From: Pseudomonadota bacterium
GTDB taxonomy: Bacteria > Pseudomonadota > Gammaproteobacteria > Burkholderiales > JAJZQI01
Length of the DNA stretch: 64,000 nt
NCBI GenBank assembly: GCA_021851875.1
Contig: JAJZQI010000010.1
Location: 1 to 64,000 of the forward strand
Reading direction: 5' to 3'
Shown here: positions 3,832 through 17,178 of the stretch, piece after piece
Position numbering within the stretch: the first letter of the stretch is position 1
How the letters are laid out: every line of letters starts with the position of its first letter
Program-made: the position numbers and the translations under genes
The notes under the pieces: generated by a model
What the model was told of the DNA's origin: nothing
The model's database searches: none
What the model saw: only the letters and a program-made list of their open reading frames with translations

Positions 3832-4248
3832 CTATCCCAAACTTTGCCACGCTCCCCAAGCTACACCAACCCCCAGTACACAACCGGCCAAAATTTCCAC
3901 TGGCGCATGCCCCATCCGCTCACGCAACATAGGAACATCATCCCTAGCCAGTTGATTGATTGCGGCTGCATGCCGTCCAACTTGACGTCTCAGACTTGAG
4001 GCATCGAGCAAAACGATAAATGCTAAGGTAAGAGCCACCCCGAAAGCAGGACTATCAATCCCTTCTTTAAAAGCAACAAGAGCCGCCATGCTGCTCACAA
4101 TCGCACTATGATTACTGGGAAACCCACCGTAACCAATAAGGCTGAATGCCAGCTTCCCGCTTCGAAAACTATTAAAGGCAAACTTCGCGCCACCCGCCAC
4201 AAGCCAAGTCAAGAAAGGCGTCAGAAGATAAGACAAATGCATAGTCAT
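3832..4248 (-). CDS. DUF212 / divergent PAP2-type membrane phosphatase
   Basis: Small membrane protein (138 residues) of the DUF212 family, related to acid phosphatases of the PAP2/vanadium haloperoxidase fold. Visible motifs are GGFPSNHSAIV near residues 41-51, DASSLRRQVGRHA near 82-94 and GHAPVE near 113-118. It overlaps the UbiA-like gene by 4 bases and is downstream of it in the same operon. In mycobacteria the gene next to the DPPR synthase encodes a PAP2 phosphatase that removes the 5-phosphate from decaprenylphosphoryl-5-phosphoribose. By position I infer the same role here. That function is inference, not shown by sequence alone. Confidence 0.75.
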   Translation of the reverse strand: MTMHLSYLLTPFLTWLVAGGAKFAFNSFRSGKLAFSLIGYGGFPSNHSAIVSSMAALVAFKEGIDSPAFGVALTLAFIVLLDASSLRRQVGRHAAAINQLARDDVPMLRERMGHAPVEILAGCVLGVGVAWGAWQSLG

Positions 4249-5144
4249 CCCTTACCTGGCCAAAGCACCCAACCACACACAGCAATCCATGCCACGACTG
4301 TGGCCAACAGCTGCCAGTCAGCCAGCAAAGCATCCGTCGGTGATTCACCCACTTCCTGCTCTTCAACCACATACCAGTAACGGAACAATCCGAACAGAAC
4401 CAGAGGAACCGTCACCACCAGTTGAGGCCTGGCTGACATCACAAACATGCTGTAAAACACTAAAGCACCTGTCGCCGACATTTCCGCATATCTGTCAACA
4501 AGCCTGATGGAATAGCGTTCCAACACCATCCGTCCCTGCTTGTTAGTTTGTTGCAATTCCTGACGTCGTTTCACTGCCGCAAGGTACAACGCCAAGCAAA
4601 GGGTTGTTATAAACATCCAATCCGAAACAGGCACAGACAAGGCCACAGCCCCCGCATATACGCGAAGAACAAAACCGATCGCGATAATAAAAATGTCGAC
4701 TACCGGCTGGTGCTTCAACACCACAGTGTATGCTAGATTCAGCAAAAGATAGCTCGCCAACACAGCCAGCAGTTTAGGCATGCTGAGCCCGCCGAACACA
4801 ATAATCCCATATAAAATAGCCAGCAGAAACAAAGCTTGTCTCGGCGTTACAATGCCAGCAGCAAGCGGACGTTGCCTGGACTTTTTCGGATGCAAGCGGT
4901 CGCGCTCGATATCCTTCAGATCATTAACAATATAGGCAGCGGAAGACGCCAAACAGAAAAGCACGAAAGCAAGCATTGCCCTGGTCACTGCTTCGCCGTC
5001 GAGAAACTCCCCGGCAAAGACTAGTGGCGCAAAGACAAAGCCATTCTTGATCCATTGTTTTGGTCTTAGCAGGGCAAGCAACCCACGCAAACGAGCTAGA
5101 GGTGCACGAACGACTGCGGTATCATCCATCCGTATCAGGTTCAC
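4245..5144 (-). CDS. UbiA-family polyprenyl-phosphate phosphoribosyltransferase (DPPR synthase-like)
   Basis: Predicted to transfer 5-phosphoribose from PRPP to a polyprenyl phosphate, the first committed step to polyprenyl-phosphoryl-arabinose. The 299-residue protein starts like the family (RPKQWIKNGFVFAPL near residues 27-41) and has the NDLKDIERD aspartate motif at residues 74-82, followed by HPKKSRQRPLAAG, the pattern of mycobacterial DPPR synthase rather than of ubiquinone or haem UbiA enzymes. About eight membrane segments are visible. GTG 5144 and ATG 5129 are both possible starts. It lies only 21 bases from divergent gtrA and is coupled to the DUF212 phosphatase gene. Confidence 0.87.
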   Translation of the reverse strand: MNLIRMDDTAVVRAPLARLRGLLALLRPKQWIKNGFVFAPLVFAGEFLDGEAVTRAMLAFVLFCLASSAAYIVNDLKDIERDRLHPKKSRQRPLAAGIVTPRQALFLLAILYGIIVFGGLSMPKLLAVLASYLLLNLAYTVVLKHQPVVDIFIIAIGFVLRVYAGAVALSVPVSDWMFITTLCLALYLAAVKRRQELQQTNKQGRMVLERYSIRLVDRYAEMSATGALVFYSMFVMSARPQLVVTVPLVLFGLFRYWYVVEEQEVGESPTDALLADWQLLATVVAWIAVCGWVLWPGKG

Positions 5145-5165
5145 AATAATTAGAAAATATCCAGG

Positions 5166-5567
5166 ATGAGGCTAGCACTAATTTATACAATTCTCGCATT
5201 AATTGCGACTGCCGCAAACATAGGCATGCAAGATGTAGTGGTTCGCACATATCAGGGCGCATATCCCGTTGCAGTTTCGGTCTTTGCGGGAACAGGCATC
5301 GGCTTGCTGGTCAAATATATGCTCGACAAGCGCTATATTTTTTCATTTCGCGCACGCAACCTGGCACATGATGGAAGAACCTTTGTTTTATATGCCTTGA
5401 TGGGAGTGATTACGACCGTCATCTTCTGGGGGTTCGAATTCGGTTTTCAGTATCTGTTCGCCAGTAAGCACATGCGCTATACGGGCGGCATCATCGGCCT
5501 CGCGATTGGTTACTGGGCAAAATATTATCTGGATAAGCGATTCATCTTTCGCCTGGGGCATGTATGA
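5166..5567 (+). CDS. GtrA family membrane protein (putative polyprenyl-P-sugar flippase)
   Basis: Four-helix membrane protein of 133 residues with the duplicated GtrA pattern: LLVKYMLDKRYIF near residues 48-60 and its repeat AKYYLDKRFIF near 118-128. GtrA proteins are associated with flipping polyprenyl-phosphate sugars. The mycobacterial homologue Rv3789 lies in the arabinan precursor cluster. It overlaps the DprE1-like gene by 4 bases (ATGA), which argues for a shared transcript and a role with the arabinose donor. The ATG at 5166 lacks a well-spaced ribosome site. Confidence 0.88.
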   Translation: MRLALIYTILALIATAANIGMQDVVVRTYQGAYPVAVSVFAGTGIGLLVKYMLDKRYIFSFRARNLAHDGRTFVLYALMGVITTVIFWGFEFGFQYLFASKHMRYTGGIIGLAIGYWAKYYLDKRFIFRLGHV

Positions 5568-6862
5568 TATCCGTTGAATCCTGGGGCCGCATTGGGATAT
5601 ACCCGCACAATATAATGCATCTGACCGCACCAGATCAGGCCTTATCCATAGTCAAGAACAATCATCCAGGGATTGCGTATGGCATGGGAAAGAGCTATGG
5701 GGATGCCTGCCTTAACCCCGGCCAACTGCTGTGGAACACACGTGGACTTGACCACTTTATTCACTTTGATGCCGATAATGGGCGATTGACATGTGAAGCT
5801 GGCGTATTGTTACGCGATATCCAGCAGCTATTTCTACCACGCGGCTGGTGTTTACCTGTGACGCCAGGCACACAATTGATCACTGTCGGCGGAGCCATAG
5901 CAAATGACGTACATGGTAAAAACCACCATGGTTTCGGCTCGTTTTGTGATCAGGTGCTACGCATTCAGTTAGCCCGTACAGATGGCTCGATCATCGAGTG
6001 TTCGCGACATTCATCACCCGACATGTTTGCCGCCACCGCTGGTGGTGTTGGATTAACCGGCGTCATCATTACGGCCGAACTCCAACTTCGACACTCACCC
6101 AATCTATGGTTGGAAACCGAAACAATCCCGTATTATGGGTTGGAAGAATTTTTTTATTTATCCGACAGCTCCGAAACTGAGTGGGAACACACGGTTTCAT
6201 GGATCGACTGCCTGAGCGGAACAGCAGCGAAAGGCCTTTTCATGCGTGGTCGACCTGCCAGAGACTACGACAAAGCCACGCAGCCCAGACGCAGCCGGAA
6301 TATTCCGATCACACCACCGCTTTCACTGGTCAACCGCCTCAGCCTGAAACCTTTCAATCTTACATACTACCAATTGCAGAAATTGCGACCAGTACAGCGC
6401 CATGAATATTATGAAGACTTTCTCTACCCATTGGATCATCTGACCAACTGGAATCGCCTATACGGCCCCAAGGGATTCTATCAATACCAGAGCGTTGTCC
6501 CGCGCGATAGCGGCATGGCCACCACGCAAGCCATGCTCGATGCCATTGCCAGCTCTGGTGAGGGTTCGTTCCTTGCCGTTCTAAAAACCTTTGGACAACG
6601 CCAATCCATTGGTATGCTCGGCTTTCCTAGACCCGGCGTTACTTTGGCGCTTGACTTCCCCAACAACGGAGATGCAACGAAAAAATTGTTTGAACGTCTT
6701 GACTCCATCGTACGGGATGCAGGTGGACGCATTTATCTCGCCAAGGATGCCCGTATGTCGCGTGAAATGTTCGAAGCCGGTTATCCTCTGCTAAACGAAT
6801 TCACTCGCTACCGTGACCCCGGCATCAGTTCTGCCTTGTCACGCCGACTCATGGGAAGCTGA
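5564..6862 (+). CDS. dprE1: DprE1-like FAD-dependent oxidase (polyprenylphosphoryl-ribose 2'-oxidase)
   Basis: Oxidises the 2'-OH of polyprenylphosphoryl-D-ribose to the keto intermediate, the first half of the epimerisation to arabinose. The 432-residue protein is a VAO-type flavoprotein: GMGKSYGDA near residues 40-48, PGTQLITVGGAIANDVHGKNHH at 101-122 (equivalent to the conserved His-Gly-Lys-Asn-His-His of mycobacterial DprE1), GGVGLTG near 160 and the C-terminal YLAKDARM segment that aligns with YTAKDSR of the mycobacterial enzyme. It overlaps gtrA and is followed 11 bases later by the DprE2-like reductase, the same pairing as in mycobacteria. Confidence 0.92.
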   Translation: MISVESWGRIGIYPHNIMHLTAPDQALSIVKNNHPGIAYGMGKSYGDACLNPGQLLWNTRGLDHFIHFDADNGRLTCEAGVLLRDIQQLFLPRGWCLPVTPGTQLITVGGAIANDVHGKNHHGFGSFCDQVLRIQLARTDGSIIECSRHSSPDMFAATAGGVGLTGVIITAELQLRHSPNLWLETETIPYYGLEEFFYLSDSSETEWEHTVSWIDCLSGTAAKGLFMRGRPARDYDKATQPRRSRNIPITPPLSLVNRLSLKPFNLTYYQLQKLRPVQRHEYYEDFLYPLDHLTNWNRLYGPKGFYQYQSVVPRDSGMATTQAMLDAIASSGEGSFLAVLKTFGQRQSIGMLGFPRPGVTLALDFPNNGDATKKLFERLDSIVRDAGGRIYLAKDARMSREMFEAGYPLLNEFTRYRDPGISSALSRRLMGS

Positions 6863-6873
6863 AGGTAAAAATC

Positions 6874-7617
6874 ATGCGCAACATTGTCATTATCGGAGCC
6901 ACCTCATCCATCGCCGAGCACTGCGCTCGCCTCTGGACAAAACAAGGCGATGTCACACTTACTCTCGTCGGACGCGATGCACAACGGACCGAAAGAGTCG
7001 CCGCCGACCTATTAATTCGCAGCAACTATGCGGAAATTCGCGTAGTCATCACCGATTTCCTTTCGCCTTCTTCTATCAAGGCAACCGCTGACCAGATTGC
7101 ACAAAAGGGAGTAATCGACATTATTCTGATTGCTCACGGCTCCCTTCCTGACCAACATGATTGCGAACAAGACCTGAATAAAGCCCATTCAGCGTTGGAA
7201 GTTAACGCCATTTCACCCGTACTGTTTGCCGAAGCATTCGCCGACCATCTTGCCAAAGCAAACCATGGCACACTGGCCATGATTGGATCAGTTGCAGGTG
7301 ATCGGGGCCGCAAGTCCAACTATATTTATGGTGCCGCCAAGGGTCTGGTCACCCGTTATGCTCAAGGCTTACAACACCGTTTCCATAACAGTGGTGTTCG
7401 CATCATTCTAATCAAGCCCGGTCCAACTGACACTCCCATGACATCGCAAATAAAGGCAGCTGGTGCACGATTAGCCCCCGTCGATCAAGTAGCTAGCGAC
7501 ATTGTCAAAGGCATCGAAAGTGGTAAACCAGTTATCTACACTCCAGCTATCTGGCAGTTGATCATGTCGATCATCCGACATTTACCAGCAACGATATTCA
7601 ACCGGCTCAATATATGA
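6874..7617 (+). CDS. dprE2: DprE2-like short-chain reductase
   Basis: Predicted NAD(P)H-dependent reduction of the 2'-keto intermediate to polyprenylphosphoryl-D-arabinofuranose. Classical SDR of 247 residues with the nucleotide motif IIGATSSIAEHCAR at residues 6-19, catalytic Ser139 (MIGSVAGDRG) and Tyr152-xxx-Lys156 (YGAAK). The GATSSIA form of the Rossmann motif and the C-terminal membrane-seeking tail (IYTPAIWQLIMSIIRHLP) match DprE2 and not fatty-acid reductases. AGGT lies five to six bases before the start. It immediately follows dprE1. Confidence 0.9.
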   Translation: MRNIVIIGATSSIAEHCARLWTKQGDVTLTLVGRDAQRTERVAADLLIRSNYAEIRVVITDFLSPSSIKATADQIAQKGVIDIILIAHGSLPDQHDCEQDLNKAHSALEVNAISPVLFAEAFADHLAKANHGTLAMIGSVAGDRGRKSNYIYGAAKGLVTRYAQGLQHRFHNSGVRIILIKPGPTDTPMTSQIKAAGARLAPVDQVASDIVKGIESGKPVIYTPAIWQLIMSIIRHLPATIFNRLNI

Positions 7618-7698
7618 ATACAATCCAATTAAATGCCCTATACTAGCGGTAACAAAAAATATTAGAGCACACAAGCAATTCACTGAGTTCAAACTAGA

Positions 7699-8700
7699 AT
7701 GCACAACACAAGTCCGCTCCCCCGCCACACCACTCTGGCCATCTTTGCACTGCTTGTCCTTGGCCTTTTTGCCGGCATGATACGCACTTATTTCGCAGCG
7801 GAATACCAGTATGCCACCCTTACCATGATGATGGATGGTACTGCTGTTATCCCATTGCAGTTTCGCGTTCTGGGTGCCTGGATCATTAAGGGAATATGGG
7901 AGACGACGGGAATGGATCTCAGCCAATTGGTTCGTTACTACGAATCGGTGGTCTTCATTCTCAGTACTTTGGCAATTTACCTTTACGGCAAAGCGACTGG
8001 ACTATCTAAACCGGCAGCACTGTTAACCGGATGTGCTTTATTGTTTCTTTACCCGTATTACTTTGTCTACCAGCCACTCGGTCATTTTTATTATCCGGGC
8101 GATACGCTTTCCATTTTGTTTACCGCCTTAGGACTGTGGCTGCTCGCAGAAAAACGCTTTAACTGGTTTGCCATATTGTTGACGATCGCGTTTTTCAATC
8201 GCGAAAGTATTGTACTGCTGATCCCACTGTTTTTATTCACATCTTATAAGCAAATACCGAACAACAAACTTGTTCTGTACCTAGTGCTGTATAGTGCGGT
8301 ATTTCTGATCGACAAGAGCATTCTCGCAGAGTTGTTCGGTAACAATCCCGGAGCCGGAACCGTTTCGCTGGATCACGACATTTTTCACCATGGCTGGCCA
8401 CGCTCGTTGGAAACCAGCCGAGTGTACAGCAATACCTTACTTTTCTTTTCCCTTGATGGCGCACTGTTTTTTCTAAGCTATGCTGGCTTTCTCTGGCTTC
8501 CTGTGCTGGTAGGCTATAGTCAAATTTCAAGTGTGTTTGTTAAAAGGAGCCTGTGGCTGATTCCGTTATCTCTCTTGCTTATGTTTCCGGTAGCCAACTT
8601 CAATGAGCCCCGCATCTATGCTGATCTGGCACCTATCATACTTATTGCAACCGCCCACGCCCTCAAACAACTACGGCAGGAATCAACTCATCCTTGCTGA
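7699..8700 (+). CDS. Uncharacterised polytopic membrane protein, GT-C-like
   Basis: A 333-residue protein with eight to ten hydrophobic segments and no family I can name with confidence. Visible are MMDGTAVIPLQFRVLGAW (residues 36-53) and FFNRESIVLL in the middle. Both resemble uncharacterised bacterial membrane proteins with Gln-x-Arg-x-Leu and Asn-Arg-Glu signatures that are thought to be GT-C-type sugar transferases. It comes 81 bases after dprE2 on the same strand, so a polyprenyl-P-arabinose-using transferase is a reasonable guess. This is inference from context. Its last 13 bases overlap the 3' end of the convergent ABC ATPase gene. Confidence 0.6.
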   Translation: MHNTSPLPRHTTLAIFALLVLGLFAGMIRTYFAAEYQYATLTMMMDGTAVIPLQFRVLGAWIIKGIWETTGMDLSQLVRYYESVVFILSTLAIYLYGKATGLSKPAALLTGCALLFLYPYYFVYQPLGHFYYPGDTLSILFTALGLWLLAEKRFNWFAILLTIAFFNRESIVLLIPLFLFTSYKQIPNNKLVLYLVLYSAVFLIDKSILAELFGNNPGAGTVSLDHDIFHHGWPRSLETSRVYSNTLLFFSLDGALFFLSYAGFLWLPVLVGYSQISSVFVKRSLWLIPLSLLLMFPVANFNEPRIYADLAPIILIATAHALKQLRQESTHPC

Positions 8701-9581
8701 CTGACATACCGCATGAATGCTGCCTCCAGAGTAGCCTCCGGTTCTACGGCAAGCAAACGTTGCCCCGAGGCATTTATGCGTTCCAGCACAACGGGCAATT
8801 CCGCTGCAGCAGACCGAATTTTCCAGCGGCCAGTTGACTCTTCCATCCCGCCCTGAAATAAATCATACCCCTCTACCCGGATCCAGTAGCCAGTACAGTC
8901 GCCAATTAGCTCAGCCGGACTCTGAACTGTCCTCAGTACACCCTTGTGTACAATCCCAATACGATCTGCTAGTCGTTCAACATCATGTAAAATATGACTT
9001 GAAAAAAACAAGGTACCTCCATCCTGCCGGTACTCGACCAATTGGTCGGCCACCTCCCGGCGCCCTACCGGGTCAAGACCTGACATCGGCTCATCGAGTA
9101 CCAACATGCGCGGCTTTATTGCAAGTGCGTGCGCCAACGCCACACGCTGCGTCATGCCTTTGGAAAATTTCCGGATGCGTTTTTTTGCCACATGGGCAAC
9201 ACCAAAACGCTCCAACCAGGTCATGATATGAGATTGCAGATTGTCCACCCGCACATCATGCAGGTGACATCCCATGGCCAGCACCTCATAGGGCGTGAGG
9301 TAGTCGTATAGATATGGATTTTCCGGCACAAAACCGATTCCCTTACGGGCCTCTGCCGTCTCCACGGGTAAGCCGTAAATTTTTGCCGTGCCAACACTAG
9401 CCGTGACAATACCCATCAGAATCTTCATCGTCGTGCTTTTACCCGCACCATTCGGCCCGACAAAACCGAATGACTCGCCATCGCCAACTGACAAACTGAC
9501 ATCAGCAAGTGCTCTGGCTGGCCGCCCAAACATGTTGGAATAGTACTTACTCACACCGTCAAGTTCAATTGCCTTTACCAT
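8688..9581 (-). CDS. ABC transporter ATP-binding protein
   Basis: ATPase subunit of an ABC-2 type exporter, 297 residues. Walker A is GPNGAGKST at residues 42-50, the signature is a degenerate KFSKGMTQR near 138-146, Walker B is MLVLDEP near 159-165, and the H-loop is SSH near 192. A roughly 70-residue C-terminal extension follows the ATPase core. It is the last gene of a leftward operon. The cognate permease is four genes upstream at 13984-14787, with the TPR protein between them. The substrate is unknown. Comparable ABC genes lie near short-pilin genes in Geobacter, as I recall. Confidence 0.92.
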   Translation of the reverse strand: MVKAIELDGVSKYYSNMFGRPARALADVSLSVGDGESFGFVGPNGAGKSTTMKILMGIVTASVGTAKIYGLPVETAEARKGIGFVPENPYLYDYLTPYEVLAMGCHLHDVRVDNLQSHIMTWLERFGVAHVAKKRIRKFSKGMTQRVALAHALAIKPRMLVLDEPMSGLDPVGRREVADQLVEYRQDGGTLFFSSHILHDVERLADRIGIVHKGVLRTVQSPAELIGDCTGYWIRVEGYDLFQGGMEESTGRWKIRSAAAELPVVLERINASGQRLLAVEPEATLEAAFMRYVSQQG

Positions 9582-9587
9582 CCCTGC

Positions 9588-10448
9588 TTACCTATTCATG
9601 ACGACTGCAACAAGCCCGGCCCGGTCCACTTCATAACGCCCACCCAATGGGTCTTGTGGTATCGCATCAAGCAGCCCGGCTGCCACTACCCTGTCCAACG
9701 AAGCCGGCTGAACACCGAATTCCTGCCGATATTTTCTCACTCCATCGCGCAGCAGGGCCATATTTTTCACACGCTCCATACGCTGAGCAAAGACCTGCTT
9801 CAACTCCGGCTCCTTAGCCTCTTCCTTCATTTGGCTAAGCACTGCCAGCGCCACCTCACTGTCAGTGGATTGTGCCACCCACTTTGCTGCAATCATCTTC
9901 AAAGCTGCACGATTTCCTTCATCAGCACGTTGCGCTGCCACCTGCAGAGCCTGGCTGGCGGCAACCGGATCATGCAAAAAATACTGTAGATTGAAGCCAT
10001 AAAAGAAAGGTGGATAGACATCTGTTGGCCGGGCTGCCGTTGCCGCTTGTAACACAGTCTGCGCCGGCGCAACGTGTCCCCCCCAGGGCAAGATGGCAGT
10101 TGCCATGTAATAATTATCCTCATGCCCAGGATTCAGGGCAGCGGCGTCCATCTGTACCTGACTGAGTGTCTTGAGTGTAATTGCATCAAGCCGCTCGACG
10201 CCCACGACCATTGCGCGAAAGGCCCCGATATTGGCGGCCAGGTAGCGGTCCCCCCCCGCCAACACAACCTGGACGGGGAGCGGCATATCAATGCTCATTT
10301 GTGCCACAGGAGCTGAACGTGACTGCTGTGACAGCCAACCGGTACTGGCAACATAAAACCATGCGGCTAGAAACACTGACACCCCAAACACCAGACGCCT
10401 GACCGCCAGAACATCTATGCGTTTATTGTAGTAGTTATTTTTGTACAT
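9588..10448 (-). CDS. Hypothetical membrane-anchored protein of the pilin locus
   Basis: A 286-residue protein with a short basic N-terminus, one membrane helix (near residues 18-34), an alpha-helical repeat-like middle rich in Ala and Gln, and a C-terminal end (YRQEFGVQPASLDRVVAAG, then PQDPLGG) resembling the C-terminal strand region of pseudopilin-like and TPR-like secretion proteins. The frame is open further upstream, but that part only mirrors the end of the upstream TPR gene. ATG 10448, 14 bases inside that gene, is the sensible start. Function not recognised. Position between the TPR/GT protein and the ABC ATPase suggests a role in the same export or pilus system. Confidence 0.7.
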   Translation of the reverse strand: MYKNNYYNKRIDVLAVRRLVFGVSVFLAAWFYVASTGWLSQQSRSAPVAQMSIDMPLPVQVVLAGGDRYLAANIGAFRAMVVGVERLDAITLKTLSQVQMDAAALNPGHEDNYYMATAILPWGGHVAPAQTVLQAATAARPTDVYPPFFYGFNLQYFLHDPVAASQALQVAAQRADEGNRAALKMIAAKWVAQSTDSEVALAVLSQMKEEAKEPELKQVFAQRMERVKNMALLRDGVRKYRQEFGVQPASLDRVVAAGLLDAIPQDPLGGRYEVDRAGLVAVVMNR

Positions 10449-13400
10449 AGGCTTGCAGTGCGGCCGCCACCCTCGACAGCACCTGTTTCCAGGATTCGTC
10501 ATCACCCTGCCGGAAAATCCGCATGCTCGGGTACCACGGACAGTCCTCACGGTCGACTTGCCAGCGCCAATCGCGCCCCTCGTTTGCCAGCATGATCCAC
10601 ACAGGCCTGCCCAGAGCTCCAGCCAAATGCGCGATGCCTGTATCCACCGCAATAACCAGATCAAGATTAGCAATGACTGCGGCTGTATCAGCCAATGTTT
10701 CACATTCCGCGACAATATTGATCAAGGGAATCTGTGGCGCCATCAGCGCCTGGTTGGATGCAGCATCCTTCTGTAAACTGTAAAGCGAAACTCCCGCAAC
10801 CCCAGCCACAGTCTCCCACTCGCTCAGCCGTGTCGAGCGATTCTTGTCATTGCCGTATTTCGGATTACCGGCCCAAACAATGCCAATCTTCAATTGTACA
10901 TCCCCCGCCAAACGCTGTTTCCACTTCGCCACCTGATCTTGCGGCGCATGCAGGTAAGGCGCAGGGTAGACGGGATTAAGCAGATCAGTGTGTAACAAGC
11001 GGGGTAATTCCATCAGATTGGTCTGCACATCATACTCCGATGGCACACTCAAATTCAGGTCATCCATCTTGATCACTTCAATACCCCAACCCTGAGCCCG
11101 TACGAGTTCAACTGCCTGATGATTAACGGCAAAAATAATCTTCCCACCCTGCAACTGACGGAGCAAGACCATAAATTGCCAAAGATCACCGTAGCCGAAA
11201 TCTTGGTATACCAACAAATGGCGCCCATTCAGCGGCTCTCCTTGCCATGCAGGAATAGTTGTTTCCTTCTTTTTTGTTCCCTGGGAGAAATGGTACCACC
11301 CCTCCTCAGTCTGGTTATATTGAAGATAGTGCCAAGCAAGGGCAAAATGCGTCGAGAACATTGCAGGCTCCAACTGCAATGCCTGCTTATAGTGCTCTAT
11401 TGCTTTAGACTGCTCACCCAGGCGGTAGAGCGCGTGACCATAATTTGCAAAATAATTTGCCTCAGTCGCGCCCTTTTCCAGTACTCGCCCAAATACCTCT
11501 GCCGCCTCGGCAAATTTCTTTTGCCCGAACAGGGCATTCCCAAGCCAGTCCAAACCAAGCAAACTGTCCGGCTCTTGCTGTACGACACGCCGTAAGGCAT
11601 GCTCTGCCAGCAAAGGGATACCCATTGTCAGGGCTAGCCGGCCAAGATTCTGCCACCCCATCGCAAACTGCGGCTGAATCTGCACCAAATGCTGGCAGGC
11701 ATCGAGAGCATCATAAAGACGTCCCTTTTTTTCTAACAACAAAGCCCGGTTATTAATAGCGACAAAATGGCGTGGGTTGTTCGATATAGCCTGCTCGTAT
11801 GCCAACAAACTCTCGTCCTGCCGGCCAGAAAACTGTAGTGCACGGCCACGCAGATAGTGCAAATTTCCCGAATGAGCGAACCGTTCCACCCCCTTATCCA
11901 GCAAGTGTAGTGCCGTGTCTATCTGCTCATCATCCTGCAACGCCCGCCCCAGCAAAATCAAGGCTTCGTGCGCCACATCAATACGAGAATGGCACAGCAA
12001 CTGCTCCCATAGATCCATTGCCTGCCTGGACTCGTGCCGCAAAACGTGCAGATCAGCGCGGGCCAACTGCCATTCGGCAGATTCTGCCATGCCGTCCGCT
12101 TCAAGCCGAGATAAAACGGACTGCAGTACAGCCACATCATGACTTCGCCTTGTTACCAGCTGAACAACTGGCAACAGGGCTGGACACCAGTCTATTGCCT
12201 CAAAATCCGCATCGATTCGTGCACCATGCTCCAGCCAACGCCAAATCCGCTTGTGCGCACCTGCCAATACCTGCTCTTGCAGATATGCCAGCAACGCTGG
12301 AATGACCCGATCGGCAAACAACTGCTGCCAGTCACCATCGCCCTCCTGTTCAAATACCCGCATGGTGGGATACCAGGGATTATCCTGTCGACCGAACAGC
12401 CAGCGCCAATCTTGCCGAATGTTTGGCAGCACAACCCAGACCGGTTTGCTCAATGCACCTGCCAGGTGAGCAACAGAAGTATCTACGGTGATAACGAGAT
12501 CAAGATTGACAATCGCTGCCGCCGTATCGGCAAAGCTGTGCAACTCCGGGGCCAGATCAGTCAGTTCAAAGCCGTAATGGGGCGTATTCAGCTCCGGCTC
12601 ACCGCTCCCTTTATGCAATGAAAACCAGCTTACCCCAGGTACCGCACGTAAAGCAGCAAACTCTTCAAGACTGGCGGAGCGCCGAATGTCATTTGCCTGC
12701 TTGGGATTGCCGGCCCAGACGATGCCAACTTTAAACCCGGGCACGCCTTCCATGCGAGTGTGCCACTGCTCAACCAGACTTTTCTGTGGGTGCAAGTATG
12801 GCACCTTAGTTGGCAAATTGTCGAAATTAATGTCAAGCAAACCCGGGATGTCCATCAGGCGCGCATGGTAATCCCAACGCAGCTCTTCCAAACCCATTTG
12901 CGTCTTCCGGGCATGCTCGTCCTGTTCCAGCAAGGTCAGAATTTCCGGTCGGGTATTAAACACAACCCGGGCCCCCCTCTCGTGCAGCATGGGCAAAAAG
13001 CGCAGAAACTGAATCATATCGCCCGCACCCTGCTCAGAGTGAAGCAGCAAAGTCTTGCCCTGCAAGCTTTCCCCTCGCCATGGCAAGGCATCAAAGACAT
13101 CGTACTTTACCTGCGCATTCATACGACGGTTGTAATACTTCCAGCCTTCTACATAGCGCCCTGTGGCCAGCAGTCCCAAGGAGTAATTCAGCACAGCGTT
13201 GATGTCTTCCTCAATCCCACCGGCCTGCTCATAGACCACCACCGATTCCGGCGAGCAGTGCCAAAGCAAAATGAAAGCTCTTTCCCTCTGTGCCGCTCGA
13301 ACAAGCGCCAGATCATCGTCAGCCCAGCTTTCCAGCTTTTGTATCTGTGCAAGCGCCGCATCGAACAACCCCAGATGCATCAGGCTGCGTGCCTGCAGCG

Positions 13401-13974
13401 TATAAATAAGGGGGCGCCACTCATCATAGTAACGCGCCAGAAATTGGGATGCCAGAATAGTTCGGGCCGGTTGTCGTAATATGTAATACTGCTGCATCAA
13501 GCCGAACAAGGCGTCGGGATTGGATCCATCTATCTGCAATATCGATTCAAAATGCCTAATAGCACGCTGGGCATCCGCATCGGCAGTATCTGTATCCATC
13601 AAATTGGCCGCCGCGTAAGCCTGGTTGCTACACGTTTCAGCCAACAAAAAAAGAACTTCCATTGCCGGTGGATTTGCGCTCGACCAGCGTAGCAGATAGC
13701 GTTCCGCTTCTGCCCATTGTTTCTGCTGAAAGAGGCCCTTGCCCAGATTGAGTATCGCACCACCATGCTCAGGATTCAGTTGCAATGACTGCTGGTAAGC
13801 TTGCACTGCAGCATCAATGTGACCGCTCCGATGCTCTGCCACACCCAGCACATACCACGCTTCAGCATTGCCAGCACAGTCTGTCGGCATGGGTCGCAAC
13901 AGATTCAGTACTTCCGCATCGTTTCCCTGCACCGCCGCCGCAATGGCGCACTCCAACACCTCACCCATCACCAT
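10435..13974 (-). CDS. Large protein with two TPR + GT9-like modules
   Basis: An 1179-residue cytoplasmic-looking protein with an internal duplication. Module 1 has TPR repeats (about residues 35-240) and a glycosyltransferase-like domain with GIVWAGNPK at 417-425, DTSVAHLAGAL at 498-508 and DWRW at 522. Module 2 has TPRs (about 640-890) and the same landmarks: GIVWAGNPK at 1031-1039, DTGIAHLAGAL at 1111-1121 and DWRW at 1135. The GT part resembles GT9/FlbA-like domains found with flagellin or pilin modification genes. No signal peptide. It sits between the ABC permease (10 bases away) and the membrane-anchored protein. A role in glycosylating pilin or an exported glycan is inference. Confidence 0.85.
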   Translation of the reverse strand: MVMGEVLECAIAAAVQGNDAEVLNLLRPMPTDCAGNAEAWYVLGVAEHRSGHIDAAVQAYQQSLQLNPEHGGAILNLGKGLFQQKQWAEAERYLLRWSSANPPAMEVLFLLAETCSNQAYAAANLMDTDTADADAQRAIRHFESILQIDGSNPDALFGLMQQYYILRQPARTILASQFLARYYDEWRPLIYTLQARSLMHLGLFDAALAQIQKLESWADDDLALVRAAQRERAFILLWHCSPESVVVYEQAGGIEEDINAVLNYSLGLLATGRYVEGWKYYNRRMNAQVKYDVFDALPWRGESLQGKTLLLHSEQGAGDMIQFLRFLPMLHERGARVVFNTRPEILTLLEQDEHARKTQMGLEELRWDYHARLMDIPGLLDINFDNLPTKVPYLHPQKSLVEQWHTRMEGVPGFKVGIVWAGNPKQANDIRRSASLEEFAALRAVPGVSWFSLHKGSGEPELNTPHYGFELTDLAPELHSFADTAAAIVNLDLVITVDTSVAHLAGALSKPVWVVLPNIRQDWRWLFGRQDNPWYPTMRVFEQEGDGDWQQLFADRVIPALLAYLQEQVLAGAHKRIWRWLEHGARIDADFEAIDWCPALLPVVQLVTRRSHDVAVLQSVLSRLEADGMAESAEWQLARADLHVLRHESRQAMDLWEQLLCHSRIDVAHEALILLGRALQDDEQIDTALHLLDKGVERFAHSGNLHYLRGRALQFSGRQDESLLAYEQAISNNPRHFVAINNRALLLEKKGRLYDALDACQHLVQIQPQFAMGWQNLGRLALTMGIPLLAEHALRRVVQQEPDSLLGLDWLGNALFGQKKFAEAAEVFGRVLEKGATEANYFANYGHALYRLGEQSKAIEHYKQALQLEPAMFSTHFALAWHYLQYNQTEEGWYHFSQGTKKKETTIPAWQGEPLNGRHLLVYQDFGYGDLWQFMVLLRQLQGGKIIFAVNHQAVELVRAQGWGIEVIKMDDLNLSVPSEYDVQTNLMELPRLLHTDLLNPVYPAPYLHAPQDQVAKWKQRLAGDVQLKIGIVWAGNPKYGNDKNRSTRLSEWETVAGVAGVSLYSLQKDAASNQALMAPQIPLINIVAECETLADTAAVIANLDLVIAVDTGIAHLAGALGRPVWIMLANEGRDWRWQVDREDCPWYPSMRIFRQGDDESWKQVLSRVAAALQAYVQK

Positions 13975-13983
13975 AACCTACTG

Positions 13984-14787
13984 TCAGTTAAATTCGCGCC
14001 GTCCGAAACGCCAGGATGCCACCAGCAACATCAAGGCAATATAAGCAAGAGCCATCAATATGGCATGCCACATCAGGGAAGCTGCCGGCCAAGAGTCATA
14101 CAATATGCCGCTGCGCCAATCCAGCCTTGACAAATCAGGCAGCGCCCATGCAACGCGTCGCAACCAGGGTAACCACAGCGCTATTGTTTCCGCATCTGCG
14201 GCCTGTGGCCGGGTCAGATAATCCAGCACCGCCCCCATACTTCGCCCGGCCAAGGCAAAACAAAAACCCAGTGCCATAGCAAGAAAAGGCGTCTCGGAAA
14301 AAGTCATCACGGCCAGGGCAAATGCCCCCACCGTACAAGCATCCAGAAAAATGCCCAGCAGAACGAGCGCATAGCGGCTGTCAATGAATGGCCGCGTCGA
14401 ATCAGCATATCCCCAGATAGCAAAGTGATCCATGATCAGCAACAAACCACCGAACAACAACACGGCCACGGCTAGCATACCCACAACCCCGATGTAGCGT
14501 CCCCAGAGATAGTCCTGGCGGGACAAAGGGTAGGACAAAGCGAAATACACGGTGCGCCGATCGATATCCTTGGCAAATACCTCTTGCAACCAGAACAACA
14601 CCAGCAGCAAAGAGAAAATTCGAATGCCGCTGATCCCCACATCCAACGACACTACAAGAGGCTGACGCAGAGAAAATGCCCCAGCGAGAAAAGCACCTGC
14701 CATCAACAACAGACCGAGCACCAGCACACCGACAAAACCGTGACTGCGCAAGCCTGACAACCAGGCAACTCTTGCATGTTGCCACAT
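13984..14787 (-). CDS. ABC-2 type transporter permease
   Basis: Membrane subunit of an ABC exporter, 267 residues with about six transmembrane segments and the ABC-2 pattern (long N-terminal cytoplasmic start RSHGFVGVLVL, then a first periplasmic loop and a DRRTVYFALSYPLSRQDYLWGR amphipathic coupling region). GGAG lies seven bases before ATG 14787. It is downstream of a strong terminator that separates it from the PilA-C-like gene, and is followed by the TPR/GT gene and later the ATPase gene at 8688-9581, its likely partner. Confidence 0.88.
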   Translation of the reverse strand: MWQHARVAWLSGLRSHGFVGVLVLGLLLMAGAFLAGAFSLRQPLVVSLDVGISGIRIFSLLLVLFWLQEVFAKDIDRRTVYFALSYPLSRQDYLWGRYIGVVGMLAVAVLLFGGLLLIMDHFAIWGYADSTRPFIDSRYALVLLGIFLDACTVGAFALAVMTFSETPFLAMALGFCFALAGRSMGAVLDYLTRPQAADAETIALWLPWLRRVAWALPDLSRLDWRSGILYDSWPAASLMWHAILMALAYIALMLLVASWRFGRREFN

Positions 14788-14798
14788 AAATCAACTCC

Positions 14799-14828
14799 AA
14801 AAAAAATGCCGGACCAAGCCGGCATTTT
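14799..14828 (-). terminator. Intrinsic terminator between pilin genes and ABC genes
   Basis: A 10-base perfect stem (AAAATGCCGG / CCGGCATTTT, loop 6 bases) is followed on the minus strand by a run of T (14799-14806). It lies between the PilA-C-like stop and the ABC permease start, so it would end most pilin transcripts and let only a fraction read into the export genes. Confidence 0.85.
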
Positions 14829-14862
14829 AGTGCAGACAATTAAGTCTGGACCAAGTTGCTTA

Positions 14863-15216
14863 TCAGGCACAACCGTTAGTAGCAGCAGCCGGAGTCAACG
14901 GGGTCGGGTTAGTCACGCTGGAGCTCTCGCACTGAATCACACCACCGCCCTCAGACGTACCGCCAAAAGTATGCATGCCGCTCGGATGAGCAGCATTTAC
15001 AGAGATTGCCGAAGAGCTCTGGGTGTAGTTAACGTTCACGCCAGCGGAACACTTCGGGGTAAATGTATCTTTCACGAAGGACGCGGTGTTACCCACCACA
15101 GAAGATCCTACGCCAGTTGTACAAGCAGAAGCAGCATAGCTTACAGCCGGTGCGGATAGAGTCACAGCCAAGGCAACGCCTGACAGTACAACTTCAATTT
15201 TCTTTGCGTGTTGCAT
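14863..15216 (-). CDS. Secreted PilA-C-like protein (separate globular pilin part)
   Basis: A 117-residue protein with a signal peptide (MQHAKKIEVV then a hydrophobic core ending AVSYA, cleavage near residue 28). The mature part has four cysteines (32, 56, 96, 116) and a Gly/Ser/Thr-rich sequence with TPKCSAGVNV and HTFGGTSEGGGVIQC, which resembles the C-terminal beta region of full-length type IV pilins. It has no prepilin cleavage site. It lies 50 bases after a 60-residue pilin gene and has its own AGGAGA ribosome site, chosen over an upstream in-frame start. This is the Geobacter-like arrangement in which PilA-N and PilA-C are encoded separately. Function as pilin partner or chaperone is inferred. 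Confidence 0.78.
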   Translation of the reverse strand: MQHAKKIEVVLSGVALAVTLSAPAVSYAASACTTGVGSSVVGNTASFVKDTFTPKCSAGVNVNYTQSSSAISVNAAHPSGMHTFGGTSEGGGVIQCESSSVTNPTPLTPAAATNGCA

Positions 15217-15266
15217 AATCTTGTCTCCTAGAGATCGATTTTCAGATTCGGACCAATTTCTCGCTA

Positions 15267-15449
15267 TCAACCGCCGGAGTTGGCGATCGCAGTGGTCAGG
15301 AAGTTGCGGGCATCGGACTGAGCTGCCTTGTCACGACCCTTTTTCTGGAATTCGGTGAACTGGGGAATCGCAATCGCGGCCAGAATACCGATAATCGCTA
15401 CTACGATCATCAGTTCGATCAAGGTAAAACCTTTTTGAACCTTTTTCAT
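15267..15449 (-). CDS. Short type IV pilin (PilA-N type)
   Basis: A 60-residue prepilin: seven-residue leader MKKVQKG, then the class III signal [24 protein letters not shown] with Glu5. The mature protein is only 53 residues and stops after the long helix (ends TTAIANSGG). Aromatic residues are at mature positions 1, 24, 27 and 43; positions 24 and 27 are also aromatic in the short Geobacter pilin. The start is set by AAGGAG seven bases upstream of ATG 15449. A sigma-54 promoter lies about 105 bases upstream. The following gene supplies a secreted cysteine-rich protein that looks like the missing globular half. Confidence 0.92.
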
Positions 15450-15553
15450 CGTCAACACTCCTTTATTTGGAACACATCTTTGACCAGTCAAAGCTTGTTA
15501 AACAATCACATCAGGAATAACCGCTCTCCGAATGTGCCTGCTGAACAACCGTT

Positions 15554-15569
15554 AGCATATTCCATGCCA
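15554..15569 (-). promoter_or_regulatory. Sigma-54 promoter of the short pilin gene
   Basis: The minus strand reads TGGCATGGAATATGCT: GG and GC elements exactly 10 bases apart, matching TGGCAYG-N4-TTGCW with one mismatch at the -12 element. The predicted start site is about 95 bases before the pilin ATG at 15449. Confidence 0.72.
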
Positions 15570-15576
15570 GTAAAAT

Positions 15577-16878
15577 TCAGGCGCAAAACCGCTTAACCGG
15601 CGTCCCTCTGTGACAAATTTTGTCACTTTTGAACATAATTTCTCCAGCCCATACGCCAAGCAACAGCCACCATAGTTGCGCGTTTGCGCCATTCCAGCTC
15701 TCGTCAGTCAAATCCCGCACGAACGGCGCAAGCACCAGAACCACACCAGAAACAGCCGCAGCCGAATCTGGCACACGCCGCCAAAACCAATACAGCAATA
15801 CAGCAATAAATACACACAACAATACAAGACCCACAATACCCGTTTGCAACCAGATATCGATAAAGACGTTATGCGCATGTGTGAAGAATTCCGGACTCAT
15901 GCGTGGAGGGTGCTCCCGCCCATAAGTCACAGTCGGATTATACAAACCGTAACCCAACCCCTGCCACATGTGCCGCATACCTCGCTCAAACCAGAACAGC
16001 CAAATATCCCAGCGTTCGCTTTTGGTAAATGCACCCAGCGTTTCCGGAGCTGCATTTCTGTATTCCCAGGAAGGTGGCTTTTGCAGAGACGACAATTCAA
16101 AAGAGCTCAGCGCAAATGCAATCATCAAAAAAATAAGTATTGAACTGGCAGGAGAAAACCGCAACCCCGTCCGCCAGACATGAGTCACCACATACACCAT
16201 CAACAACACCAGGAATACCACCCAAACCATCCTGATCAAAGTCAAATAGGCTATAAGCGCCCACAAGAGAAACAATGCGAACGGCCACAGCAACTGCCCG
16301 CGCTGACTCATGCGCAACTGCACATCAAGCAATGCAGGAAGTATCAAAACCAAAGCGCCAACATAGTAGGACTGAACCCCCCATATGCCGGGCCTAAAGA
16401 GATCGAAGGGATGCGGCCAACGCCCGATATACAAAATACCCAACCACATTGTTGTTAACCAACCTGCAACAACCAGAAATTGCAAAGTCTGGAAAGATAG
16501 GCGGCGGCGCAGCAACATCCCAACAAGAAACAGGTATATTCCAGTCAAGATTTCCGTTTGCCAATATGTAATCGTATAACGCCAATTGACAGACCACATA
16601 ATGGAGATCAGGGCCCATGAAGCCAAGGCGACAAAACCATAAAGAGGGTACGAGAAACGTTGCACAAGCGAAACCGTTACCCCACGGACCTCCACCCGCA
16701 CAAACAAAAAAACAAAAGCAGCCAGGATAATAAGCCGCAGAACATCGGCGTAATAGTAGCCAACCAAGCCAACAAATGACGCAAACAAAAATGCAAACAA
16801 CAAATTGGCGCGACCTACCTTCCCCATGAAAAAGTGTCCGCCTTCACGCACTAGATTATGTCCACGATCATAAGACAC
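15577..16878 (-). CDS. O-antigen ligase / pilin ligase-like membrane protein
   Basis: Polytopic membrane protein (433 residues, about ten to twelve helices) of the Wzy_C/WaaL/PglL superfamily. Key features are a conserved arginine in TLIRMVWV (Arg216), the GLGYGLYNP segment near 307-315 and the FFTHAHNVF motif with His334 and His336 in the large periplasmic loop. Such enzymes transfer a lipid-linked glycan to lipid A core or, in the PilO/PglL/TfpO group, to pilin. It lies between two short pilin genes in one orientation, which favours pilin as acceptor, though O-antigen ligation cannot be excluded. ATG 16827 is an alternative start that trims 17 residues. Confidence 0.83.
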   Translation of the reverse strand: MSYDRGHNLVREGGHFFMGKVGRANLLFAFLFASFVGLVGYYYADVLRLIILAAFVFLFVRVEVRGVTVSLVQRFSYPLYGFVALASWALISIMWSVNWRYTITYWQTEILTGIYLFLVGMLLRRRLSFQTLQFLVVAGWLTTMWLGILYIGRWPHPFDLFRPGIWGVQSYYVGALVLILPALLDVQLRMSQRGQLLWPFALFLLWALIAYLTLIRMVWVVFLVLLMVYVVTHVWRTGLRFSPASSILIFLMIAFALSSFELSSLQKPPSWEYRNAAPETLGAFTKSERWDIWLFWFERGMRHMWQGLGYGLYNPTVTYGREHPPRMSPEFFTHAHNVFIDIWLQTGIVGLVLLCVFIAVLLYWFWRRVPDSAAAVSGVVLVLAPFVRDLTDESWNGANAQLWWLLLGVWAGEIMFKSDKICHRGTPVKRFCA

Positions 16879-16893
16879 TTCAGCAATACGTGA

Positions 16894-17088
16894 TCAGTTA
16901 CCCGAATTAGCGACAGCCATTGTCAGGAAACTTCTAGCATCTGATTGCGCTGCTTTGTCGTTTGCTTTTCGACGATACTCTCCAAACGTATTGATCGCAA
17001 TCGTTGCAAGAATTCCAATAATAGCGACAACAATCATCAGTTCAATCAAGGTAAAACCATTTGATCTAACCAATTTCCTTGATGCCAT
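16894..17088 (-). CDS. Short type IV pilin paralogue
   Basis: A 64-residue prepilin with leader MASRKLVRSNG and mature start [21 protein letters not shown]. The mature length is 53 residues, the same as the paralogue at 15267-15449, and the tails align (AAQSDARSFLTMAVANSGN). Proline 22 of the usual pilin helix is replaced by Asn, and aromatics are at 1, 24, 27 (Tyr) and 43. GGAGG is seven bases before ATG 17088; a GTG one codon earlier is less well spaced. A near-perfect sigma-54 promoter sits 38 bases upstream. First gene of the leftward pilin operon. Confidence 0.9.
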   Translation of the reverse strand: MASRKLVRSNGFTLIELMIVVAIIGILATIAINTFGEYRRKANDKAAQSDARSFLTMAVANSGN

Positions 17089-17125
17089 CACTTATCCTCC
17101 TTACCCAGTGTGTTTGCTATAGAAA

Positions 17126-17141
17126 AGCAAGGCACATGCCA
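17126..17141 (-). promoter_or_regulatory. Sigma-54 promoter of the first short pilin gene
   Basis: The minus strand reads TGGCATGTGCCTTGCT, an essentially perfect TGGCAYG-N4-TTGCT element with GG and GC 10 bases apart. Transcription would start near 17115, leaving a leader of about 27 bases with GGAGG at 17096-17100. This fits PilS-PilR/RpoN control of pilin genes known in Pseudomonas and Geobacter. Confidence 0.85.
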
Positions 17142-17178
17142 ACACACATATCCCGCCCAAGCGACGAAAAAGCATCAA

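Follow-up and report, generated by a model that had tools for sequence, protein, structure and literature searches.

A predicted five-gene D-arabinofuranose donor cassette in a Gram-negative genome

Does a compact group of genes in this Burkholderiales genome encode the whole route to a lipid-linked D-arabinofuranose (D-Araf) donor, and where would the sugar be placed? In mycobacteria the DPA pathway comprises Rv3806c, Rv3807c, DprE1, DprE2 and Rv3789, and its lipid-linked D-arabinose goes into the cell wall of tuberculosis bacteria. Within the window (the whole stretch of 64,000 nucleotides that was analysed), a sequence-only reading had placed six proteins of such a pathway in 5 kb; all six open reading frames were verified within positions 3832–8700, together with the motifs NDLKDIERD, HGKNHH and YGAAK in their translations. 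We conclude that positions 3832–7617 very probably form a five-gene donor cassette leading to undecaprenyl-phosphoryl-D-arabinofuranose, followed by GT-C-type transfer of the sugar to a surface glycan or glycoprotein. The complete polyprenyl-phosphoryl-D-arabinofuranose donor pathway that had been proposed is well supported by the homology of the enzymes and by conservation of the cassette. A Gram-negative D-Araf donor pathway is not in itself new, having been published (PMC12369383, PMC11841053; general class PMC11127046) and being common in genome searches.

Enzymes of the donor cassette

Two minus-strand genes overlapping by 4 bp encode a DUF212 membrane protein (3832–4248, discussed below) and a UbiA-family polyprenyl-phosphate phosphoribosyltransferase (DPPR synthase; 4245–5144, with an uncertain GTG start). 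The synthase passes the cut-off of the NCBI decaprenyl-phosphate phosphoribosyltransferase model NF008977 (234.4 bits against 234), its best solved relatives are 8j8j and 8j8k (E = 2.4e-39 for 8j8j), and its active-site residues are conserved, with an invariant aspartate-rich motif. In a tree of UbiA proteins, in which one row (L001, a wrong-strand frame) was disregarded, the cassette protein clusters with DPPR synthases and apart from the genome's own quinone enzyme.

On the plus strand lie the genes for a GtrA-family small membrane protein (5166–5567), a DprE1-type FAD oxidase (polyprenylphosphoryl-ribose 2-oxidase; 5564–6862) and a DprE2-type SDR reductase (6874–7617), the first two again overlapping by 4 bp in an operon-like arrangement. 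The GtrA protein matches NF037976 (181 bits against a cut-off of 50, E = 7e-54) and is also above the cut-off of PF04138; it is presumed to be the flippase for the lipid donor. DprE1 matches NF053785 at E = 1.1e-94 with 318 bits, under the NCBI curated equivalog cut-off of 500, and solved DprE1 chains at E = 1.2e-62. Alignment with solved DprE1 shows that His132 of the FAD site, Lys367 and the catalytic Lys418 are conserved, whereas alanine replaces the benzothiazinone residue Cys387 (all Mycobacterium tuberculosis numbering), so covalent inhibition by benzothiazinones is not expected. DprE2 matches NF053786 at E = 2.1e-48 with 165 bits, under the curated equivalog cut-off of 250; it keeps the SDR YxxxK motif (as YGAAK), and mycobacterial DprE2 (21gq_C) is the one solved relative that it has at E ≤ 1e-20. 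The best solved relatives of both proteins are thus the mycobacterial enzymes and not unrelated oxidases. As judged from sequence, the family assignments across the cassette are well beyond chance.

In the route that we propose, the DUF212 protein would strip the 5-phosphate, DprE1 would oxidise ribose C2 and DprE2 would reduce C2 with inversion to give undecaprenyl-phosphoryl-D-arabinofuranose, which GtrA would help to transfer to the periplasmic face. A GT-C-type membrane transferase, most simply the 333-aa neighbour (7699–8700, plus strand), would then add D-Araf to a surface glycan or glycoprotein. The scores of DprE1 and DprE2 under their equivalog cut-offs would also fit a cassette that makes polyprenylphosphoryl-ribofuranose or another epimer, with the DprE1- and DprE2-like enzymes acting on a different substrate. 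We regard this as highly unlikely given the mycobacterial kinship of the pair, their presence in one operon with a DPPR synthase both here and in distant genomes, and the different, single SDR epimerase of the published xylofuranose branch. In published pentofuranose systems DprE1/E2 homologues mark the Araf versions and do not accompany Ribf or Xylf (PMC11127046).

DUF212 as a candidate 5-phosphatase

The sequence-only reading had listed a small PAP2-like phosphatase in the cassette. A phosphatase candidate is present, but its family is the divergent-PAP2 DUF212 (PF02681, E = 1.7e-32) and not classical PAP2, to which it has only a weak match (PF01569). Its PS-x-H and GH-xxx-E motifs are invariant across seven cassette copies. 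DUF212 genes adjoin 10 of 34 stand-alone DPPR synthases and none of 53 HAD-fused ones; this restriction to stand-alone synthases predicts that DUF212 is a DPPR 5-phosphatase, although the loci with DUF212 all fall into a single UbiA clade and the count is therefore not independent evidence. Another clade of stand-alone DPPR synthases has separate HAD genes in place of DUF212. The accessible literature yielded no assigned enzymatic role for DUF212, and the predicted structure (pLDDT 60) was too poor for use, with no Foldseek match at E ≤ 0.001.

Distribution and relation to known systems

At least 586 DprE1-type stretches were found in species-representative genomes, and none in the phages searched. 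The block of DUF212–UbiA divergent from GtrA–DprE1–DprE2 recurs as a unit in G181, Sideroxydans, Noviherbaspirillum, Motiliproteus, a gammaproteobacterial metagenome-assembled genome and others, flanked by differing polytopic proteins, and UbiA, DprE1 and DprE2 remain linked across several phyla.

The cassette shares its reaction order with the mycobacterial DPA pathway and has clear sequence kinship to it for three enzymes, but differs in its phosphatase candidate, DUF212, and in the alanine at the benzothiazinone cysteine of DprE1. No Emb/Aft arabinosyltransferase match was found by Pfam among the cassette-linked proteins. Three-component pentofuranose glycosylation systems, known in Citrobacter youngae O1/O2, likewise combine a UbiA-type polyprenyl-phosphate phosphoribosyltransferase, an optional epimerase step and a membrane transferase, for which there is a candidate here (PMC11127046). 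Those systems have a fused HAD phosphatase and a MATE flippase, whereas here there are a stand-alone synthase with DUF212, GtrA, and a transferase candidate that lacks a family match. The D-Araf pilin pathway of Pseudomonas paraeruginosa/Pa5196 (PSPA7_6245–6251 with TfpW) resembles the cassette as a Gram-negative donor route with a stand-alone DPPR synthase and a separate phosphatase; its donor genes lie in a genomic island away from the pilin–tfpW cassette (PMC12369383, PMC11841053). By contrast, the neighbour of the present cassette is a locus for short Geobacter-type pilins that contains a Wzy_C protein, with no TfpW identified.

Transferase, pilus locus and destination of the D-Araf

As judged from topology, the 333-aa protein has about 10 hydrophobic segments, and its first loop contains an acidic residue. 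It has no Pfam match and a weak, sub-threshold match to NF046093 (E = 0.003). When same-order and same-phylum genomes were searched, a single distant relative was convincing, in genome G434; the remaining weak matches were rejected, being short frames without membrane character or, in two cases, unrelated SecF-like membrane proteins. No relatives were found in genome contigs or plasmids, profile comparison with 182 clustered polytopic proteins of DprE1 loci reached a probability of 5% at best, and the predicted structure (pLDDT 48) was too poor for use. The protein is nearly an orphan in sequence searches.

The pilus locus that had been noted beside the cassette does exist, at 8.7–17.1 kb, and all of its genes described here are on the minus strand. 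An ABC transporter ATPase (8688–9581; PF00005, E = 2.7e-27) is followed by a membrane-anchored protein (9588–10448), which we take by position to be PilG-like and which served as the marker for the co-occurrence test. Next come a TPR protein matching many TPR models and containing two glycosyltransferase-9-like stretches (10435–13974; PF01075, E = 3.4e-14) and an ABC-2 permease (13984–14787; PF12679, E = 9.6e-9). A small Ser/Thr-rich secreted protein (14863–15216), which bears a Sec-type signal, is placed like Geobacter PilA-C/Spc, a likeness of position only; it has no Pfam or NCBIfam match and none significant in the PDB. The adjacent 60-aa type IV pilin (15267–15449; N_methyl, 43.7 bits) is of the Geobacter PilA-N type, with 'Geopilin domain 1 protein' entries as its best solved relatives (E = 2.4e-15). 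An O-antigen-ligase-type (Wzy_C) protein (15577–16878; PF04932), one of three in the genome, and a second short type IV pilin (16894–17091, 65-aa frame; N_methyl, 37.1 bits) complete the locus. The likeness to Geobacter lies in the pilin length of about 60 aa and in the small secreted protein that comes after the pilin; it concerns this neighbouring locus and not the cassette, and the secreted partner has no detectable homology to that of Geobacter.

A surface target of some kind is likely. The sequence-only reading named the pilus locus as a candidate, and D-Araf could in principle be added by the 333-aa or the Wzy_C protein to the short pilin, or else to the pilin's secreted partner, in the way that Pseudomonas group IV pilins are modified. 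The cassette and the pilus locus are convergent neighbours in one low-GC block (0.40–0.55, against 0.61 in both flanking genes), synteny with a same-genus genome (G001) ends at the mutarotase gene bordering this block, an O-antigen-ligase-type gene lies between the two pilin genes, and TfpW/TfpO provide a precedent (PMC11841053, PMC12369383). A match to the amiC-side flank was sought in the same-genus genome, which is incomplete, and none was found. Across 299 same-order genomes, however, the pilus marker and DprE1 are independent (2/17 versus 29/282, Fisher p = 0.69), which leaves pili unsupported as the target; unlike in TfpW-type arabinosylation, donor pathway and pilin type do not co-occur. 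This pilus locus lies near none of 111 other DprE1 loci, and in Sideroxydans, the best-matched relative, the cassette sits amid O-antigen-type genes. With adjacency as what links the two loci, we consider a pilin target unlikely, and the more specific proposal that a nearly orphan small transferase family puts D-Araf on a Geobacter-type short pilin, from a donor cassette using a DUF212 5-phosphatase, quite improbable.

On balance the recipient is probably a cell-surface glycan such as LPS O-antigen or exopolysaccharide, with the sugar attached in the periplasm as in three-component systems. A published class follows such logic (PMC11127046), and glycosyltransferases and Wzy_C proteins adjoin related cassettes; against this, no O-antigen cluster adjoins the cassette in the window, where the pilus locus supplies the only glycan-type genes next to it. 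The 333-aa protein is a putative arabinosyltransferase. There is a substantial but not the leading possibility that the transferase is encoded elsewhere in the genome and that the 333-aa protein has some unrelated membrane role, such as that of a flippase accessory or a polymerase; its lack of a family match, and of any profile resemblance to the polytopic proteins linked to DprE1 at other loci, would allow this. The gene follows DprE2 in the same orientation, and this, together with the topology of the protein and the occurrence of a polytopic protein in or near that position in many other cassettes, argues instead for a transferase.

The pathway is best known as a target for drugs against tuberculosis, and this cassette adds to the Gram-negative bacteria that carry it; the donor module behaves as a transferable unit with exchangeable neighbours. 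If DUF212 proteins are DPPR 5-phosphatases, they would be a further solution to this step alongside Rv3807c and the HAD enzymes, a new idea that can be tested.

Donor cassette and its enzymes

The window opens contig 22 of a genome of 2.68 Mb (98.75% complete), covering the contig's first 64 kb, and it contains all six ORFs that the sequence-only reading had placed within 3832-8700, with the motifs ascribed to them. The organism is Gram-negative and falls, by GTDB, in the order that includes Acidovorax. A DUF212 gene (3832-4248) and a UbiA-type DPPR synthase gene (4245-5144) lie on the minus strand; genes for GtrA (5166-5567), DprE1 (5564-6862), DprE2 (6874-7617) and a 333-aa polytopic protein (7699-8700) lie on the plus strand. 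The two minus-strand genes overlap by 4 bp, as do the first two plus-strand genes.

The UbiA protein clears the threshold that NCBI sets for decaprenyl-phosphate phosphoribosyltransferase; it aligns with the mycobacterial enzyme of solved structure at E = 2.4e-39 and retains the aspartate-rich motif. The genome encodes two further UbiA proteins; in a tree with 86 rows (row L001, a wrong-strand frame, is to be disregarded), the 4-hydroxybenzoate-type one lies far from every DPPR synthase. The GtrA protein also scores over the cut-off of its NCBI family profile. At E ≤ 1e-10 the solved relatives of the 5564-6862 protein are DprE1 chains only; it retains His132, Lys367 and Lys418 and has an alanine in place of the benzothiazinone-reactive Cys387. 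The alanine at this position (A362) is invariant across 16 aligned same-order DprE1 proteins. DprE2 is the sole solved relative of the 6874-7617 protein at E ≤ 1e-20. The interpretation of these genes as a pathway to a D-arabinofuranose (D-Araf) donor is well supported, and the cassette is an ordinary, well-conserved example.

Searches for DprE1 at E ≤ 1e-60 gave matches in 32 of 300 same-order genomes, on 64 plasmids and, among species-representative genomes, in at least 586 stretches. The exact unit, DUF212-UbiA diverging from GtrA-DprE1-DprE2, also occurs in comparison genome G181, in Sideroxydans, Noviherbaspirillum and Motiliproteus, and in one gammaproteobacterial and one Burkholderiaceae MAG.

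Polytopic neighbours of the cassette

The polytopic neighbours vary between copies of the cassette. In published systems the donor module is common and the transferases are variable, with Araf versions that carry DprE1/E2 (PMC11127046); the cassettes compared here show the same pattern, with a shared donor module and differing polytopic neighbours. In the window's own polytopic protein (7699-8700), about ten hydrophobic segments can be counted; the first loop contains an acidic residue, and the motifs NRES and EPRIY lie close to later segments. It has no Pfam match, and its match to a cell-surface glycopolymer family is sub-threshold (E = 0.003). One distant relative (23% identity) was found in comparison genome G434, where the cassette probes gave zero matches at the relative's locus. 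By position and topology only, the 7699-8700 protein is a candidate arabinosyltransferase.

Nineteen related polytopic proteins recur near DprE1 genes in other genomes, for example at L036 (12766-14454), L039 (10922-12655) and L064 (6333-7895). Several carry W-D-M-W and N-E-H-R motifs, and the members scanned have no Pfam match. This cluster is a candidate uncharacterised family of GT-C arabinosyltransferases.

The pilus locus and its apparently variable setting

The pilus locus that the sequence-only reading had recognised beside the cassette does exist, and comprises two short pilins and accessory genes. Within 14863-17091 a Wzy_C O-antigen-ligase-type gene separates two Geobacter-type pilin genes, which encode 60 and 65 aa, and a small secreted Ser/Thr-rich protein follows the first pilin. 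The best solved relative of the first pilin is Geobacter geopilin domain 1. The arrangement of 14863-17091 resembles the split PilA-N/PilA-C layout of Geobacter, here outside that genus. The locus also includes ABC transporter genes, a PilG-like protein (9588-10448, minus strand) and a 1179-aa protein (10435-13974) that combines TPR arrays with two GT9-like stretches, possibly a pilus-linked glycosyltransferase.

The proposal that the sugar is used on these pili is unsupported. Across same-order genomes the PilG-like marker shows no association with DprE1 (2/17 versus 29/282, P = 0.69), and the two further genomes that carry both have them on separate contigs, so that the adjacency of cassette and pilus locus looks like that of two residents of one variable region. 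The sugar could still be used on the pili. Per-gene GC is 0.40-0.55 across the 3.8-17.1 kb block and 0.61 in the flanking genes; amiC and a mutarotase-like gene bound the low-GC block (3832-17178). The gene order shared with G001, a genome of the same genus, ends at 17.19 kb, and in G001 an FAD-dependent oxidoreductase-like gene adjoins the mutarotase instead of the block, which is why 3832-17178 looks like a variable surface-structure region.

DUF212 as a predicted 5-phosphatase

The 3832-4248 protein belongs to DUF212, with invariant PSxH and GHxxxE motifs that, in our reading, may resemble those of PAP2 phosphatases, a resemblance to which a weak PF01569 match also points. Among 111 DprE1 loci, 53 DPPR synthases are fused to a HAD phosphatase and 34 stand alone; DUF212 adjoins 10 of the stand-alone synthases and none of the 53 fused ones (Fisher P = 3e-5). 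Every DUF212 case falls within one UbiA clade of the tree, indicating a single evolutionary association, not many independent ones, and this association spans several families and one Verrucomicrobiota genome. The other clade of stand-alone synthases has separate HAD genes (PF12710). Beside the DprE1/UbiA genes of that clade, stand-alone HAD phosphatase genes lie at L057 (7019-7705), L059 (7431-8057) and L043 (10397-11035), consistent with alternative DPPR phosphatases. For some stand-alone synthases, those at loci L111 and L119 among them, the neighbouring genes yielded no recognised phosphatase. Most simply, the 5-phosphatase would differ from lineage to lineage, with DUF212 as one of these enzymes, and this predicted role for DUF212 is the part of the analysis most worth testing.
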